A stretch of DNA of 40,558 nt. Origin: Bordetella parapertussis (GTDB lineage: Bacteria > Pseudomonadota > Gammaproteobacteria > Burkholderiales > Burkholderiaceae_C). Each line of letters opens with the position of its first letter. Within the stretch, counting starts at the first letter, position 1. The stretch is taken from contig CAMDKR010000003.1 in assembly GCA_945901225.1 (NCBI GenBank), positions 1 through 40,558 of the forward strand. Reading direction: 5' to 3'. Made by a program: the position numbers and the translations under genes. The notes under the pieces were generated by a model. The model was not told the origin of the DNA, made no database searches, and saw only the letters and a program-made list of their open reading frames with translations. Shown here piece by piece: positions 33,862-40,558 of the stretch.

Positions 33862-34563
33862 TCAATTACCGTCGTTCAGCACCCCGAGTACATCGGAGCG
33901 GAATTCGCGGTTGTACAAAATCGCCACGATCAACAACGTGGTGAGCACAAAAGCCATGGGTGAGAAAAACCAGCCCATCACCGCAAATGAAAAGTAATAA
34001 GCTCGAAGTCCATCATTGAAGGTTTCAGCGGCCAGTCCTGTCATGGCGGATACACGTTCGGCGTAATCGTCTTCCCTCTCGGGTTGAGCTGCAAAAAACT
34101 CGGGCGACGGCAAAGCGCCGATCATCAAGGCGACAAAAGTGTATTGCCGCATCGACCATGAAAAGCGGAAAAAGGCGTACACAAAAATCGCAATCAAGAC
34201 CAGTATCTTGAACTCGAACACCAAAATAGGCGTCGCCTGCGAAAAAGGAATTTCACGCACCAACTCAGCCGCCTTGTCTGTGGTGCCCATGAGGGCCAGC
34301 AAACCACCAATGATCAGAATGGTGGTAGAGGAGAAAAAAGCGGGGGTGTTGGACAGGGTCTGGGTGATGATCCCATCAAGCACTCTTGGGTCGCGTGACA
34401 AAGACACCTTGATCCAGCGCAGTCGAAAGCGGTTGGTGGCGGCCAAAATAGAGGGACGCTTGAGTGACCAGCGGCTGGCAAATTGGGCATAGCCAATCCA
34501 CACCAGTGAAAAAAACACCAAAACCAACCAATCTGCCCACGGCAGTATGCTCAAAATCTTCAT
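33862..34563 (-). CDS. DUF599 family membrane protein
   Basis: A 233-aa integral membrane protein. There are helices at about residues 10-28 (WLVLVFFSLVWIGYAQF), 78-96 (STTILIIGGLLALMG), 112-135 (ILVFEFKILVLIAIFVYAFF) and 190-222 (YFSFAVMGWFFSPMAFVLTT). The polar loop FRLRWIKVSLSRDPRVLDGI and the segment MRQYTFVALMIGALP are typical of DUF599. Function is unknown. It converges on bioB with a 10-bp gap; no operon partner is seen. Confidence 0.85.
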   Translation of the reverse strand: MKILSILPWADWLVLVFFSLVWIGYAQFASRWSLKRPSILAATNRFRLRWIKVSLSRDPRVLDGIITQTLSNTPAFFSSTTILIIGGLLALMGTTDKAAELVREIPFSQATPILVFEFKILVLIAIFVYAFFRFSWSMRQYTFVALMIGALPSPEFFAAQPEREDDYAERVSAMTGLAAETFNDGLRAYYFSFAVMGWFFSPMAFVLTTLLIVAILYNREFRSDVLGVLNDGN

Positions 34564-34584
34564 GGCTTCATGCTACCCCATCGT

Positions 34585-34619
34585 AAAAAAAAACCGCTTG
34601 GCACTCGCGTACCAAGCGG
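34585..34619 (-). terminator. Rho-independent terminator of the pirin-wrbA transcript
   Basis: On the minus strand the stem CCGCTTGG (34612-34619) and CCAAGCGG (34594-34601) has a 10-base loop and is followed by nine T. It lies 22 bases after the stop of the wrbA-like gene and in front of the DUF599 gene. Confidence 0.9.
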
Positions 34620-34640
34620 CTTAAAGCGGTCAGTGAACAA

Positions 34641-35174
34641 TCAAGCGCGCAATTTGGCAGCCACTTGAGCTACGCGTTCGCCATAGGCTTTGGCGGTGTC
34701 CAAGTCACCTTGGGGAATATCAGCTGCGGGGCTGGTGGGGCCCACTTGCGCCATCACGCCAGAGTTGGAGCCAATGCGGTTGATGTTGCCGTCGTTCATG
34801 GCAGGTTGACCCACCCACACCATGCCTTGCTGCATCGCCAAGGTGATGAAGTATTGGATGGTGGAGAGCTTGTCACCGCTGGGGCTGGCAGAAATGGTGA
34901 AACCACCAGCGACCTTGTCTTTCCATGCGCCGCTCATCCATTGCTTGGAAGTGGCATCGGCGAATTTTTTGAATTGCCAAGAAGCCATGCCCATGTAAGT
35001 GGGTGAGCCAAAGATGATGGCGTCCGCCGCATTGATGGCGGTCCAATCGGCTTCGCTGATATTGCCTTCAGCATCGATGGCAATGATTTGCGCCTTGGCG
35101 CCTTCAGCCACAAATTGGGCTACGCGCTGGGTGTGGCCGTAGCCAGAGTGGTAAACAACAACAGTTTTGCTCAT
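34641..35174 (-). CDS. WrbA-like flavodoxin family NAD(P)H-dependent oxidoreductase
   Basis: A 177-aa flavodoxin-fold protein. The FMN phosphate-binding loop is VVYHSGYGHTQRVAQFVAEG at the N-terminus, and the second flavin loop is FGSPTYMGMASWQFKKFADA. The third, FTISASPSGDKLSTIQYF, matches WrbA-type quinone reductases, though the protein is somewhat shorter than E. coli WrbA (198 aa). The ATG at 35174 has GGAG seven bases upstream; a longer frame to 35219 lacks family similarity. It follows the pirin gene by 28 bp. Quinone detoxification is the likely role. Confidence 0.9.
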   Translation of the reverse strand: MSKTVVVYHSGYGHTQRVAQFVAEGAKAQIIAIDAEGNISEADWTAINAADAIIFGSPTYMGMASWQFKKFADATSKQWMSGAWKDKVAGGFTISASPSGDKLSTIQYFITLAMQQGMVWVGQPAMNDGNINRIGSNSGVMAQVGPTSPAADIPQGDLDTAKAYGERVAQVAAKLRA

Positions 35175-35202
35175 GATTTCTCCTTGGTAAGCAACAAAAA
35201 AT

Positions 35203-35904
35203 TCAGGGGGCCAGATCAAACACCAAGACTTCTGCGTCTTGGCCCTTGGTCAGCTCGATTCGAGATTCCCCATCTAACAACAAGGCGTCGCCAGCTTGCA
35301 GCTGCTGGCCGTTGACTTGCAGCTGGCCACGAATCAGGTGGACATAGGCTTTGTGGTCAGCGCCTAGGGTTAAGTTCGCTGTTTCATTGCCATCGAATAA
35401 ACCGGCATACAGCTGGGCATTCGCATAAATCTTCACGGCGTCGCCCGTGGGGTTGTGGCTGGCAATCAAGGCCAGGGCGCCGCGCTTGCTGGCAGAGGCA
35501 ATGGTTTTTTGCTCGTAGCCGGGGGTCACGCCGCGCTGGTTGGGCTCAATCCAGATTTGCAAAAAATGGGTTTCTTGGCCCTCGGCATGGTTGAACTCAC
35601 TGTGTTTAACGCCGGTGCCGGCACTCATGCGCTGCACGTCCCCTGGCGGAATGCCTTTGACGTTACCCATGCTGTCTTGGTGGGCCAAATTGCCCGACAG
35701 CACATAGCTGATGATTTCCATGTCTTGGTGGCCATGGGTGCCAAAACCAGTACCCGGGGCAATGCGGTCTTCGTTGATGACGCGCAAATTGCCCCAGCCC
35801 ATGTAGGCAGGGTCGTAGTAGCCAGCAAAAGAAAAACTGTGAAATGACTTCAACCAACCGTGGTCGGCATAGCCTCTGTCTTGGGAGCGTCGAATAGTGA
35901 GCAT
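35203..35904 (-). CDS. Pirin family protein
   Basis: A 233-aa bicupin. The metal ligands are His57, His59 (GFGTHGHQDMEIISYVLSG), His101 and Glu103 (GTGVKHSEFNHAEGQ), matching the pirin set. The N-terminus RRSQDRGYADHGWLKSFHSF is the YhhW/pirin signature. Several bacterial pirins are quercetinases; this fits the adjacent quinone reductase. It is divergent from a LysR regulator at 36009 with a 104-bp gap, and wrbA is next on the same strand, so LysR control of pirin-wrbA is likely. Confidence 0.94.
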   Translation of the reverse strand: MLTIRRSQDRGYADHGWLKSFHSFSFAGYYDPAYMGWGNLRVINEDRIAPGTGFGTHGHQDMEIISYVLSGNLAHQDSMGNVKGIPPGDVQRMSAGTGVKHSEFNHAEGQETHFLQIWIEPNQRGVTPGYEQKTIASASKRGALALIASHNPTGDAVKIYANAQLYAGLFDGNETANLTLGADHKAYVHLIRGQLQVNGQQLQAGDALLLDGESRIELTKGQDAEVLVFDLAP

Positions 35905-35979
35905 AGTTTTTATCTTATTAAGTATTAAATTTTATAGACGTGAAAGCTGCTGTGGTTTCAGCGAAATTGATGGCATCAT

Positions 35980-35992
35980 TCAAATAATTTGA
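35980..35992. promoter_or_regulatory. LysR-type box (T-N11-A) between pirin and the LysR gene
   Basis: TCAAATAATTTGA is a perfect 13-bp palindrome of the form T-N11-A, the classic LysR-type recognition pattern. It is 16 bp before the LysR start codon and about 75 bp from the pirin start. Confidence 0.55.
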
Positions 35993-36008
35993 TTAATAAG
36001 CCATTTTT

Positions 36009-36989
36009 ATGTCCTCCGCCCGAGATGTTCTGACCCCCGACGCCCTCTTCATGATCAACGCGATCGCTGAAACAGGCAGTTTTGCGGGGGCTGCCCGCGA
36101 GATAGGCTTGGTTCCCAGTGCCTTGAGCTACCGCGTACGTCAGATGGAGGAAGCCTTGGACGTGTTGCTGTTCACCCGCTCATCGCGCCAAGCCAAGCTC
36201 ACGGCGGCGGGTCGTGAACTGCTGAACGAAGGCAGCCGTTTGTTGCTGGACATGGACAGCATCGCGCACCGCGTCAAGCGGGTGGCCACCGGCTGGGAGA
36301 GCCAGCTCACCATCGCAGTGGACGCCATCATCGATTTTCAAACCATGATGGAGCTGAGCGAGACCTTCTTTTCGCTCAACCCGCCTACGCGTTTAAAGCT
36401 TCGCAATGAAACTTTGAGCGGCACCTTGAGCGCTTTGACCTCAGGCCAAGCCGATTTGGCCGTGGGTGTGAGCGACCAATACAGCAATAACGCGGGACTG
36501 CGTTTTGCCCCCTTGGGCGAGGTGGCGTTTGTTTTTGCAGTGGCGCCTCAGCATCCCTTGGCTCGAATGGTGCAACCGCTGAGCGACAGCTTGATACAAG
36601 CCCACCGTGCGGTTGCCGTGGCCGACTCGGTGCCCCAAGGCAGTGGCCTGACCGTCGGTCTGCTCGCAGGCCAAGACGTGTTCACCGTGCCCAGCATGCA
36701 AGCCAAATTGGACGCGCAGTTGCGTGGTTTGGGGGCAGGCTTTTTGCCCTACCCTTTGGCCCAGCCTTATATTGAGCAAGGCTTGCTCAGTGTTTGCGAG
36801 GTGATGCGCCCTTTGCGACTTGCCACCTTCAGCTATGCATGGCGTGAAAACCCCAGCCCCAAGGGTCAACCCGCAGGTGACAAAGCCTTGCAATGGTGGT
36901 TGCAACAACTCAGCCACAGCAACACACGCAACGCCTTGTTGCGCAAAGCTCCCCAAAGCCCCCGACTCGGTGTAGAGTCAGACCTATGA
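36009..36989 (+). CDS. LysR family transcriptional regulator
   Basis: A 326-aa regulator. The winged helix-turn-helix is in residues 8-67 (FMINAIAETGSFAGAAREIG, then PSALSYRVRQMEEALDVLLF). A type 2 periplasmic-binding-like effector domain follows from about residue 95 (ESQLTIAVDAIIDFQTMMEL) to 295. It is divergent from pirin-wrbA, which is the usual arrangement for a LysR activator and its target; the effector may be a quinone or flavonoid-like compound (inference). Its stop overlaps the next gene as ATGA. Confidence 0.95.
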   Translation: MSSARDVLTPDALFMINAIAETGSFAGAAREIGLVPSALSYRVRQMEEALDVLLFTRSSRQAKLTAAGRELLNEGSRLLLDMDSIAHRVKRVATGWESQLTIAVDAIIDFQTMMELSETFFSLNPPTRLKLRNETLSGTLSALTSGQADLAVGVSDQYSNNAGLRFAPLGEVAFVFAVAPQHPLARMVQPLSDSLIQAHRAVAVADSVPQGSGLTVGLLAGQDVFTVPSMQAKLDAQLRGLGAGFLPYPLAQPYIEQGLLSVCEVMRPLRLATFSYAWRENPSPKGQPAGDKALQWWLQQLSHSNTRNALLRKAPQSPRLGVESDL

Positions 36990-38023
36990 AAAAAATCGCT
37001 GTCATCGGTGCTGGCATGGCCGGCATCACCGCCGCAAGAACCTTGGTCCAAGCTGGTCACCACGTCAGCGTATTTGAAAAGAGCAAAGGCGCTGGGGGCC
37101 GCATGGCCACACGTGACACGCCCTACGGCGGCTTTGACCATGGGGCCCAATATTTCACGGTGCGCGATGAACGCTTCATGAAAGCCTTGAACGAGGTCCC
37201 TGGCACACAAGCTTTGTGCAAACCTTGGAGCGCCAGCTCAGTCCAAGTACGTGACCCGCTGGGCAGGGTGATCGAAGTGCCCAAGCCACCGCGCGAGCTG
37301 CATTTTGTGGGTGCACCTGCCATGAATGTTGTGGTTCGGCACTGGGCCCAGCCATTGGCCGATGCCGGTGCGCTCCACTTCAATACCAGCGTCAAAGCCC
37401 TGCGCCGACAAGCCAAGCAATGGCAGTTGGTAAGCGCTGACGACAAAGTGCTGGGCAGCTTTGACAGCGTGGTCTTGGCCATTCCCAATGTGCAAGCGGC
37501 CTATTTGCTGCGCCAGTCTGGCGCACCTGCGGCGCAATTCAAAGCTTTGACTGCCACCGAGGCCGTGAGCGTCGCCCCTTGCTGGACGCTGATGCTGGCC
37601 TTCCCCTTGGTGCAACCAGGGCTTGGGCAAATGGGTCCTCAATGGAATGTGGCGCAAAGCACCCATCACCGCATCGCATGGGTGGCGCGTGAATCTTCCA
37701 AGCCCGGCCGCTCACCGATTGAACGCTGGACAGTGCAAGCCAGCGCCGAGTGGTCGCAAGAGCATGTAGAAGACGATGAGGCCCGAGTCGAGGCCAAGTT
37801 ATTGAAAGCGTTTGCGGAACTAACGGGTATCAGGGCAGAGCCGGGGTTCAGCCAAATCCTTCTGTGGCGTTACGCGAAAACCTTGAAACCTGCTGGGCAA
37901 GCTTTTTTCTGGGACGACGAGCAACACATAGGACTGTGCGGTGACTGGCTGATCGGTCACCGTGTCGAAGACGCTTTTGTCAGCGGACTGAGTCTGGCGC
38001 TCAGCCTACAAGCGCCAGCCTAA
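36986..38023 (+). CDS. FAD-dependent NAD(P)-binding oxidoreductase, renalase/amine-oxidase-like
   Basis: A 345-aa flavoprotein. The Rossmann motif VIGAGMAGITAARTLVQAGH at the N-terminus is followed by VFEKSKGAGGRMATR and GGFDHGAQYFTVRDERF, typical of the renalase-like group. The C-terminal FAD motif is GLCGDWLIGHRVEDAFVSGL. The ATG at 36986 overlaps the LysR stop as ATGA, so the two are co-translated. The substrate is unknown. Proximity to the LysR gene might make it part of the same regulon. Confidence 0.92.
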   Translation: MKKIAVIGAGMAGITAARTLVQAGHHVSVFEKSKGAGGRMATRDTPYGGFDHGAQYFTVRDERFMKALNEVPGTQALCKPWSASSVQVRDPLGRVIEVPKPPRELHFVGAPAMNVVVRHWAQPLADAGALHFNTSVKALRRQAKQWQLVSADDKVLGSFDSVVLAIPNVQAAYLLRQSGAPAAQFKALTATEAVSVAPCWTLMLAFPLVQPGLGQMGPQWNVAQSTHHRIAWVARESSKPGRSPIERWTVQASAEWSQEHVEDDEARVEAKLLKAFAELTGIRAEPGFSQILLWRYAKTLKPAGQAFFWDDEQHIGLCGDWLIGHRVEDAFVSGLSLALSLQAPA

Positions 38024-38040
38024 GGAATTTACTTTTTCTT
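37994..38040 (+). terminator. Possible terminator at the end of the FAD oxidoreductase gene
   Basis: Perfect eight-pair stem CTGGCGCT (37994-38001) and AGCGCCAG (38011-38018) with a nine-base loop, inside the last codons. A T-rich but interrupted tract (ATTTACTTTTTCTT) follows from 38027. It could end this transcript before the convergent puc operon. Confidence 0.4.
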
Positions 38041-38121
38041 GTAGGGCTTGTTGAACCAATTGGCCAACATAAACAACATCAAAAGGACCCACATAATCAA
38101 TAGGATGTGGTGTATTTGCAT
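38029..38121 (-). CDS. 30-residue single-helix membrane peptide downstream of pucC
   Basis: A short open frame of 30 codons, not recognised by me. It begins with ATG at 38119-38121 after the strong site AAGGAG at a normal distance, 36 bp behind the pucC stop. Residues 5-22 are one hydrophobic helix (ILLIMWVLLMLFMLANWF), two His at 4-5 lie at the N-terminal side, and the tail NKPYKKK is strongly basic, so the C-terminus should be cytoplasmic. Position as the last gene of the puc operon and its size recall small antenna-associated polypeptides (gamma-type subunits, PufX-like). The function is inference only. Confidence 0.7.
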   Translation of the reverse strand: MQIHHILLIMWVLLMLFMLANWFNKPYKKK

Positions 38122-38157
38122 GGTGTGTCTCCTTGGTTTAAAAAATGAGGCTGAATG

Positions 38158-39519
38158 TTAGCGAACTTTTTTGGCGATGAGCGGATACATGGCATAAAGG
38201 GTGATCAGCAACAACACCACTTCTAGGCTGTACACAAAGGCATAAGCCGTTCCAGAATCCACCACCAAAGCCATCAAGTCGCGAATGATACCGCCCAAAC
38301 CCATGGCCAAACCGGCGGCGGTGGCCTGCACAGCCCCCCACGCGCCCAAGGCCAAACCAGCCTGACCTGGGGGGGCATGGTTCATGGTGGCGGTCAAGGT
38401 GCCATGACCAAACAAACCCGCACCAAAGCCAATCAGCAAGGTACCCAAAGCAAATAGCAGCAACGAGGCTTGGGGTGCCGACACCAACACAGCCAAGAAA
38501 GCAGGAATGCCTACCCAAACGCCGCCGCAAGCCATGCGAAACGGGTCGGCGCCTCGGCCAAGCACACGCGAAGCCCAAGCAAAACCAGTTAAGCCGCCCA
38601 AGGCCAACAAAGCAGTCAATAAGGTGGTGTCTGACACCTCTAAATGCAAAATTTCGCCGCCAAAGGGTTCTAGCAACACATCGCCCATGCTGAACGCCAT
38701 GGTGCCCACCCCCACCGCCAGCAAACGCCTGAGCGCGTTCTCACCTTGGGTGAAGTGCTTCATGGCAGCCACAAAGTCGACATCTTCCTCGTGCGGGTCG
38801 CCCAATCGCCTTGTGCGGGCTTCTTGTTTCCATAAGGCGGTGATGTTGAGCACCAAGGTCAACACGGCGGCGGCTTGTACCGATCGGATCAAGGCGCCAG
38901 GTGAAAAGTCACGCAGCCAATAGCCAAACAACAAGGCGCTGAGAATCATGCCGACCAACAGCATGAAGTACATCAAGCCAACGACTTTGGGGCGGGACTC
39001 GGGGGGAGATAAATCGGTGGCCAAAGCTAAGCCAGCCGTTTGGGTGGTGTGCATACCTGCACCCACCAACAGAAAAGCGACTCCCGCTGCCAAATGGCCC
39101 ACCCAATCTGGGGCATGGGCAGACTGTCCTAAGCGACCCAAGACCAGCAAAGCAAAGGGCATGATGGCAAAACCACCAAACTGCAGCAAAGTGCCCATCC
39201 AAATATACGGAACGCGACGCCAGCCCAAGGCCGAGCGGTGGTGGTCAGAGCGAAAACCTATCAAGGCACGAAAAGGTGCAAACAACAAAGGCAAAGCAAT
39301 CATGATGGCCACCAAAGCAGCGGGTACTTTGAGCTCGACGATCATGACGCGGTTGAGGGTACCAATCAGCATGGCCAAAGCCATGCCTACAGAAATTTGA
39401 AAAAGCGATAAACGTAAAAGCCGGCTTAGTGGCAGCGTATCGGTGGCTGCGTCAGCGAAAGGCAGGAACTTCAGGCTGATATGCAACCAACCACGCGAGA
39501 GTTTGGAAGACCCAGTCAT
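38158..39519 (-). CDS. pucC: PucC/BCH-family MFS protein, LH2 assembly factor
   Basis: A 453-aa, 12-helix major-facilitator protein of the bacteriochlorophyll delivery/LhaA-PucC family, needed for LH2 formation. Recognisable parts are RLSLFQISVGMALAMLIGTL, NRVMIVELKVPAALVAIMIA, FAPFRALIGFRSDHHRSALG and WRRVPYIWMGTLLQFGGFAI. The ATG at 39519 is preferred; a TTG at 39543 would add eight residues that overlap the upstream hairpin. No Shine-Dalgarno sequence precedes the ATG, only the T-run of that hairpin, so expression should be low compared with pucBA. It follows pucA by 58 bp. Confidence 0.94.
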   Translation of the reverse strand: MTGSSKLSRGWLHISLKFLPFADAATDTLPLSRLLRLSLFQISVGMALAMLIGTLNRVMIVELKVPAALVAIMIALPLLFAPFRALIGFRSDHHRSALGWRRVPYIWMGTLLQFGGFAIMPFALLVLGRLGQSAHAPDWVGHLAAGVAFLLVGAGMHTTQTAGLALATDLSPPESRPKVVGLMYFMLLVGMILSALLFGYWLRDFSPGALIRSVQAAAVLTLVLNITALWKQEARTRRLGDPHEEDVDFVAAMKHFTQGENALRRLLAVGVGTMAFSMGDVLLEPFGGEILHLEVSDTTLLTALLALGGLTGFAWASRVLGRGADPFRMACGGVWVGIPAFLAVLVSAPQASLLLFALGTLLIGFGAGLFGHGTLTATMNHAPPGQAGLALGAWGAVQATAAGLAMGLGGIIRDLMALVVDSGTAYAFVYSLEVVLLLITLYAMYPLIAKKVR

Positions 39520-39521
39520 AT

Positions 39522-39557
39522 AAAAAATGGACCGGAAAGACAAGCCATCCGGTCCAT
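39522..39557 (-). terminator. Attenuator-like hairpin between pucA and pucC
   Basis: On the minus strand ATGGACCGG (39549-39557) pairs perfectly with CCGGTCCAT (39527-39535) around a 13-base loop, followed by a run of T (39522-39527). This is an intrinsic terminator shape, 20 bases after the pucA stop and ending 2 bases before the pucC start codon. It probably ends most transcripts after pucBA and protects their 3' end, letting only a fraction reach pucC. Confidence 0.8.
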
Positions 39558-39577
39558 CCTAAATGAAATACCCGAAC

Positions 39578-39769
39578 TTAAACCGTTGGCGTCGCAACGG
39601 TCTGTGTGACCGCAGCTGTCGCCGCACTGCCATTCAGGAATTTCTTGACCCAAGTGGTGTTGAGGGTCAGCGCCAAATGCACCGAGAACGATGCAATAGC
39701 GACTGCAGCGATGAAAATAGGAATGCCCACTGAGGGCTTGACCACTGTCCAAATTTTTCCGTAGATCAT
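39578..39769 (-). CDS. pucA: Light-harvesting LH2 alpha subunit
   Basis: A 63-aa antenna polypeptide. It aligns without gaps to LH2 alpha from residue 1 to 47: MIYGKIWTVVKPSVGIPIF, the membrane helix with the B850-type ligand His31 (ASFSVHLALTL), then TTWVKKFLNG. Met1 would supply the B800 ligand. At 44-45 it has Phe-Leu, where B800-850 antennae have Tyr-Trp and B800-820 (LH3) antennae have Phe-Leu. A tail of 16 residues rich in Ala, Thr and Val follows, as in Rubrivivax-type alpha chains. AGGAG precedes the ATG; pucB ends 12 bp upstream. Confidence 0.95.
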   Translation of the reverse strand: MIYGKIWTVVKPSVGIPIFIAAVAIASFSVHLALTLNTTWVKKFLNGSAATAAVTQTVATPTV

Positions 39770-39781
39770 GTGGTGCTCCTA

Positions 39782-39928
39782 TTATTTCAGCCAAGGGGAG
39801 TAGATGTACGCAAGCAAATGCGCCAGCGCGGCAATCATTCCAAAGATTTGAGTTCCCTGGATGAGGTGCCGATGAATCTCTTCTGACTCGGCTTCTGTGA
39901 GGCCTGTTGGCCCTACTTTATCTGACAT
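39782..39928 (-). CDS. pucB: Light-harvesting LH2 beta subunit
   Basis: A 48-aa antenna polypeptide. The pattern GLTEAESEEIHRHLIQGTQI then FGMIAALAHLLAYIYSPWLK is a near-perfect LH2 beta sequence. His37 is the BChl ligand of the ring pair; His19, 18 residues before, is the conserved upstream His. The ATG at 39928 has AAGGAG eight bases upstream. First gene of pucB-pucA-pucC, with a leader of about 100 bases. Confidence 0.95.
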   Translation of the reverse strand: MSDKVGPTGLTEAESEEIHRHLIQGTQIFGMIAALAHLLAYIYSPWLK

Positions 39929-40028
39929 GTTGTTATCTCCTTGAAAGATCTTCACGTCCGTGCTGAACCCGCACGAGGGTTATTTATGACCCCCATGGCC
40001 ACAAATTCTTAAAACCCTATTATCCTAG

Positions 40029-40046
40029 TGTTATTTTAAGTTTACA
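40029..40046. promoter_or_regulatory. PpsR/CrtJ operator 1 (covers the puc -10)
   Basis: TGT-N12-ACA palindrome (TGTTATTTTAAGTTTACA), the consensus of the redox/light repressor PpsR (CrtJ). On the minus strand it contains the -10 element TAAAAT (40033-40038). Confidence 0.8.
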
Positions 40047-40060
40047 TATTAATCTGTCAA
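40033..40060 (-). promoter_or_regulatory. puc operon sigma-70 promoter
   Basis: On the minus strand: -35 TTGACA (40055-40060, perfect), a 16-bp spacer, and -10 TAAAAT (40033-40038, five of six). Predicted start of transcription is near 40026, about 98 bases before the pucB ATG. The leader can form a CGTGC/GCACG hairpin before the ribosome binding site. Confidence 0.8.
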
Positions 40061-40072
40061 TCTAAATTTACA
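40055..40072. promoter_or_regulatory. PpsR/CrtJ operator 2 (covers the puc -35)
   Basis: Second TGT-N12-ACA palindrome (TGTCAATCTAAATTTACA), 8 bp from the first. On the minus strand its end is the TTGACA of the -35. A tandem pair at this spacing is the arrangement that allows cooperative CrtJ binding at bchC-type promoters. Confidence 0.8.
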
Positions 40073-40140
40073 TGCTTAGGGGTTTACCATTGGGTTAAAG
40101 TCCTGTGTCTCGCTAAGCCATTGAAAATAATCAATATTCC

Positions 40141-40558
40141 ATGTACATAGGACGCTTCGCCCCCTCTCCAACCGGCCCTTTACACGCCGGTTCTTTGGTT
40201 GCGGCACTGGCCAGTTGGCTGGATACGCGTCATCACGGGGGGCTATGGCAGGTGCGCATCGAAGACCTTGATACGCCTCGCTGCGTGGCTGGCGCGAGTG
40301 ACATCATCTTGAAACAATTGGCTGATTTCGGCTTGCTGCCAAACAGCGAAGTCCTTTACCAATCGACACGCGGGGCTGCCTACCAACATGCCCTAGAGAG
40401 TTTGGTGACCAAGGGCTGGGCCTATGCCTGCGCTTGTTCTCGCAAAGACATTGAAGATGCGCAAGGTGAACGCCTTCGCCACAGTGCGGCGGTCTACCCC
40501 GGCACATGCCGAGAAGGCTTGAAGGGCAAAGCTGCCCGTGCATGGCGCTTGAACGTGC
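40141..40558 (+). CDS. gluQ: Glutamyl-Q tRNA(Asp) synthetase, N-terminal part (cut by window edge)
   Basis: Paralogue of glutamyl-tRNA synthetase that attaches glutamate to the queuosine of tRNA(Asp). The visible 139 codons begin [20 protein letters not shown] with the HIGH-like motif, then [16 protein letters not shown]. The zinc site CAC with a later Cys ([11 protein letters not shown] ... YPGTCREG) is characteristic of GluQ and of the short non-discriminating form. The gene runs off the right edge, so the absence of the anticodon-binding domain cannot be shown, but the close start-to-HIGH distance and the zinc site support GluQ over GltX. Divergent from the puc promoter. Confidence 0.9.

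Follow-up and report, generated by a model that had tools for sequence, protein, structure and literature searches.

The pucA gene of the window (the whole stretch of DNA analysed here, 40,558 nucleotides long) encodes an LH2-type antenna alpha chain in which no known alpha hydrogen-bond donor is left at positions 41, 44 or 45, because position 41 is Val and the pair at 44-45 is Phe-Leu. The B850 band of the resulting ring is predicted at about 813 nm, in a range of 803–826 nm, and we put the probability of this donor-free reading at roughly three in four. In this Limnohabitans-related freshwater bacterium, an aerobic anoxygenic phototroph, pucBAC encodes the one peripheral antenna found to date. 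Its alpha and beta chains would assemble into an LH2-type ring, probably a nonamer, carrying B800 and strongly coupled B850-site bacteriochlorophylls. In the solved rings of this alpha type, Tyr or Trp at alpha 41, 44 and 45 bond the C3-acetyl groups of the pigments; with Val, Phe and Leu in these places the acetyl groups would be free, which would raise the site energies and move the B850 band to about 813 nm. The features that carry this reading are the following.

39578–39769, minus strand: pucA, LH2-type antenna alpha chain of 63 aa (open reading frame; PF00556, E = 6.9e-07; diagnostic residues)
39635–39640, minus strand: pucA codons 44-45, TTC CTG (Phe-Leu), from the sequence and the alignment
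39647–39649, minus strand: pucA codon 41, GTC (Val), from the sequence
39785–39928, minus strand: pucB, LH2-type antenna beta chain of 48 aa (PF00556, E = 4.8e-09; Gln at His-10, Trp at His+9)
38158–39543, minus strand: pucC, a major-facilitator-type protein for antenna assembly (PF03209, E = 2e-150), with the start given as TTG at 39543 and an ATG present at 39519

Numbered with His31 and Trp40 as anchors, PucA has Ser27, His31, Trp40, Val41, Phe44 and Leu45. Both antenna chains pass the curated PF00556 cut-off of 23 bits, PucA with 29.8 and PucB with 36.7 bits. In a MAFFT alignment, PucA is ungapped against the LH2 alpha chain of Rhodoblastus acidophilus (1kzu) and the LH3 alpha chain of strain 7050 (1ijd) across all 53 of their residues. 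Residues 44-45 are Tyr-Trp in 1kzu, where they bond the B850 acetyl groups, and Phe-Leu in both 1ijd and the window. The first-pass annotation, which gave no strand, had claimed this Phe-Leu pair, an ungapped alignment with the Rbl. acidophilus chain and the same two replacements in strain 7050, and all three claims are borne out by the register set by the two anchors on the minus strand and by the solved chain 1IJD.

A comparison of nine LH2 structures relates the number of C3-acetyl bonds to the absorption maximum: two bonds correspond to ~850 nm, one to ~825 nm and none to ~800 nm (PMC9618040, Table 1). The strain 7050 LH3 (B800-820), described as a low-light form, belongs to the one-bond class, since Tyr41, the donor that remains, bonds the C3-acetyl of the alpha-side pigment (PMC9618040). 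The window shares Phe44-Leu45 and the ungapped register with this LH3 but has Val41 where it has Tyr41, and one puc pair was found in its genome. The annotation had predicted a band near 820 nm, like that of the 7050 LH3. A blue-shifted B850 is indeed expected because there is no hydrogen-bond donor at 44-45, but the direct equation with the 7050 LH3 is rejected as stated, in view of Val41 and of the 813-nm value of Limnohabitans planktonicus.

L. planktonicus, the nearest relative with a listed spectrum, and two solved chains that have no donors at these positions, 7ZE3 and 9LT4, are better guides to the wavelength than the 7050 LH3. The 813-nm value is the main basis of the prediction. It is taken from a table in a 2025 review, which cites a 2018 paper and lists peaks of L. 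planktonicus II-D5 at 799, 813 and 865 nm (PMC12654162). The PucA of this strain has the same Ser27, His31, Val41, Phe44 and Leu45 and is 75% identical to that of the window over residues 1-60; Gln at beta His-10 and the pucBAC order are also shared. Our literature search, mostly of titles and conducted without the primary 2018 paper, returned no link of the Limnohabitans 813-nm peak to alpha 41, 44 or 45.

The best solved alpha match of the window PucA is the PucD-LH2 of Rhodopseudomonas palustris (7ze3, E = 6.3e-16). Its alpha chain is Val41-Phe44-Met45, so that Val41, Phe44 and a donor-free position 45 are shared, and both chains are without Tyr or Trp at 41, 44 and 45; the PucD chain differs in having Met45 and Val27 where the window has Leu45 and Ser27. 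The ends of the beta chains are nearly the same (YVYSPWL in PucD-LH2 against YIYSPWL in the window). PucD-LH2 has no C3-acetyl bonds and a single peak at 803 nm, and it is one of several puc pairs and contains a gamma chain (PMC9618040). This source prints Met44/Phe45 in one passage and Phe-44/Met-45 in a legend; the 7ze3 chain itself reads Phe44-Met45. A more distant match, the 9LT4 alpha chain (E = 2.7e-08), also has Ser27 and no Tyr or Trp at 41, 44 or 45, but reads Phe41-Phe44-Phe45; the entry is named 'B-800/814', which is a label and not a spectrum.

The exact wavelength is set less firmly than the blue shift. In Rba. sphaeroides, a Phe44-Leu45 double mutant that keeps Ser27 absorbs at 826 nm, and a change of Ser27 alone leaves the maximum unmoved (PMC8775250). 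Position 41 of the Rba. sphaeroides alpha chain is Leu; the 826-nm band thus arises without Tyr41, so the loss of donors is not by itself enough to place the band at 813 nm. Given this mutant, a band at about 820 nm may still be produced by the window's ring. Ser27, kept in the 826-nm mutant, is also present in the window, and PucD is without it. Taken together, the residues speak more strongly against an 850-nm band than for any exact wavelength.

A classic LH3, in which one bond is left from a residue other than Tyr41 and the band lies near 820–826 nm, is the strongest of the alternatives, although we regard it as improbable. The Phe44-Leu45 pair of 1ijd, the 826-nm mutant (PMC8775250) and Rhodoferax antarcticus, whose Phe44-Phe45 antenna absorbs at 819 nm (PMC5374385), speak for it. 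It is opposed by Val41 in place of Tyr41 and by the 813 nm listed for L. planktonicus, in which the residues are the same (PMC12654162). Rather less likely is a PucD-like or LH4-like ring, in which B850 would merge with B800 into one peak at 803–806 nm. The closeness of 7ze3, with no bonds and one 803-nm peak (PMC9618040), favors such a ring, but the two separate L. planktonicus peaks at 799 and 813 nm (PMC12654162) do not fit a single peak, and the window has Ser27 where PucD has Val27.

The 2025 review also raises for Limnohabitans, because of similar peaks, the possibility that such chains surround RC-LH1 as a second ring, the arrangement of Gemmatimonas phototrophica, and do not make separate LH2 rings (PMC12654162). 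The window alpha chain is ungapped against the alpha chains of nonameric LH2s, N-terminus included, and ring size is said to depend on N-terminal length (PMC9618040), which makes a second ring quite unlikely here. Among the 16 PDB alpha matches at E 10, none is from 7o0u–7o0x, which we take to be the G. phototrophica entries; a beta chain from them matches the window beta chain weakly (E = 7.3e-06). Very little weight is given to a rescue of the bonds by another donor, such as the beta Trp at His+9, which would return the ring to near 850 nm. This Trp is present in the window and in 73/73 distinct beta chains, and a beta Trp of Phs. molischianum bonds the beta-side pigment (PMC9618040, Table 1). 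Rescue is thought unlikely because PucD has the same Trp and a nearly identical beta C-terminus and yet shows no bonds (PMC9618040); moreover, no 850-nm peak is among the values listed for L. planktonicus (PMC12654162).

The host genome, of which the window is contig C3, is a draft with 195 contigs and a total of 1.77 Mb, and its completeness is 77%. Four PF00556 matches exceed the cut-off in this draft: pucB and pucA of the window and two chains on contig C10, flanked by pufL and bchZ, that are taken as pufB and pufA. Contig C10 also carries pufM, pufC, bchY and crtD, and the host genome as a whole has pufLMC, bchY, bchZ, crtD and ppsR. A second puc pair was not found by the PF00556 profile search of the 195 contigs, so the annotation's view of this as the only puc pair holds within the 77%-complete draft. 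In the genus, at least one match at E 0.01 was obtained in 51 of 84 genomes, with 56 places listed. The 50 same-genus loci that were read account for 51 of these places; of the five omitted, three match only in part (G004, G079, G080) and two are weak hits within long frames (G019, G030). A full-length PucA is present in 49 of the 50 loci, which represent 48 of the 84 genomes. One same-genus genome (G011) has two full-length pucA genes (L026, L053), both Phe-Leu, and is the only such case; G079 and G080 each have an extra pucA fragment at a contig end beside a full copy. At L055 (2151–2273), a PucA of 41 aa without the His31 region lies between intact pucB and pucC, due to either gene decay or an assembly error.

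Most near relatives share Phe44-Leu45. The combination Ser27/Val41/Phe44/Leu45 is found in 46/50 same-genus loci and in 79/80 named loci (the best 80 of the 288 relatives found by the named-genome scan), two sets that share genomes. This conservation indicates that the pair is more than chance, and an 'unusual antenna' is rejected on the same counts. In wider samples the combination occurs in 8/23 loci of the family, 19/28 of the order and 6/10 of the phylum. The window and one genome of the genus are part of the family set; three places were dropped from the order set (two read before, one lacking a locus) and two, also read before, from the phylum set. Matches were obtained in 23/399, 30/399 and 12/398 genomes, respectively, with a query profile built mostly of Phe-Leu chains, which may favor such chains. 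In the family sample, Tyr-Tyr is the commonest single pair (9/23) and donors are present at 44 or 45 in 12/23 loci. Two of the named loci (L067 and L123) come from genomes titled Rickettsia typhi and Akkermansia muciniphila; their pucBAC is near-identical to that of comamonads and the names look wrong. Outside the order of the window, the PucA chains of one family (f95; L198–L200, L205–L207) are also Ser27-Val41-Phe44-Leu45. We take these chains to be Roseobacter-like; a search of plasmids returned no named relative of them, and PMC5783997 and PMC5313593 yielded no Roseobacter residue data.

The residues were also set against a PucC tree (FastTree; 42 of 142 inner branches open). Of the 145 chains placed on it, 129 have Phe and 16 have Tyr at position 44, and 127 have Leu at position 45; Tyr, Trp and His are all absent from positions 41, 44 and 45 in 128. 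Not included in the tree are the window itself (L001), L147, L148, exact duplicates, loci whose state could not be read, and 16 loci in which PucC is short or missing. A division into Phe-Leu and all other states needs at least 14 changes on this tree, 8 of them forced by starred branches. Within a single genus (g103; L150, L158, L160, L162, L164), Phe-Leu, Tyr-Tyr and Phe-Phe PucA chains are interleaved on the tree. This pattern suggests that the antenna color has been switched repeatedly.

In the beta chain of Rba. sphaeroides, the residue at His-10 is an Arg that bonds B800 (PMC8775250). This position is Gln in the window's PucB and in 58/73 distinct beta chains, and Arg in the remaining 15/73. 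As this Gln is shared by L. planktonicus, for which a peak at 799 nm is listed, it may serve B800 in place of Arg.

Upstream of pucB there are two palindromes of the form TGT-N12-ACA, which we presume to be a PpsR/CrtJ site.

40029–40046, no strand assigned: PpsR-like palindrome 118 bp before pucB, shared by 5/12 distinct clade genomes that could be read, the window not counted
40055–40072, no strand assigned: PpsR-like palindrome that precedes pucB by 144 bp; 12/12 distinct clade genomes that could be read, the window not counted, have it at -142 to -146

The 144-bp site is kept in 23/23 readable clade loci, which amount to 12 distinct genomes, 11 of them counted twice. For the 119 other loci, a set that includes the window itself, a site lies within 300 bp upstream in 85 and none is present in 34; as a background, across all loci plus the window, 295 of 4207 tiles of 300 bp contain one (7%). 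A ppsR gene is present in the host genome on contig C22, and pucBAC is probably under PpsR control.

By Pfam, the neighbors of pucBAC in the window are a Glu/Gln-class tRNA synthetase gene (gluQ-like) on one side and FAD oxidoreductase, lysR, pirin and flavodoxin genes on the other; a DUF599 gene is also present. The operon is thus not inside a photosynthesis gene cluster, as its neighbors are non-photosynthesis genes and the puf, bch and crt genes are on contig C10. Such neighbors, together with two PpsR-like sites upstream, are the less expected feature of the locus. In the 19 other same-genus loci with this setting (L007–L024, L055), gluQ adjoins pucB in 14 and 5 end first; the FAD oxidoreductase gene is present in all 18 named clade loci (L067–L084) at 64% identity or more. 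Three puc settings are found among the relatives (window span compared, 33862–40557), with the neighbor genes family-scanned at the window, L128 and L059 only: that of the window's clade, that of L. planktonicus (L128) and that of L059. Unlike in the window, pucBAC of L. planktonicus comes after pufC, a crtA-like gene, crtD and crtC, and the review's statement on the Limnohabitans puc setting agrees with this arrangement (PMC12654162). At L059, from the same genus but outside the clade, the two scanned neighbors encode a substrate-binding protein and a cobalamin-binding-like protein.

An LH3-like complex as the sole antenna is not new in itself. It was published in 2017 for Rfx. antarcticus, which resembles the window in its single puc operon and in having no donor at 44-45, but differs in its Phe44-Phe45, its 819-nm band and the place of its puc operon, which lies in the photosynthesis gene cluster with crt genes around it (PMC5374385). 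An LH3-like antenna with peaks at 804 and 821 nm was described in 2013 for Pseudohaliea (Haliea) rubra (PMC3679898).

For the group as a whole, the chances are about even that many freshwater Burkholderiales have a donor-free ~813-nm ring with Ser27-Val41-Phe44-Leu45 as their standard and usually only peripheral antenna, that one or two substitutions at alpha 44/45 have repeatedly changed its color, and that in the window's clade its pucBAC sits among non-photosynthesis genes with the PpsR-like sites kept. The present comparison ties the listed Limnohabitans 813-nm peak to specific residues and shows that position 41 must be read together with 44 and 45. The ring would also provide a natural series for testing site-energy shifts of bacteriochlorophyll without any C3-acetyl hydrogen bond, and the natural 41/44/45 variants would allow a test of color tuning among close relatives. 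If this is right, many freshwater phototrophs of the group would harvest light near 800–815 nm and not at 850 nm.
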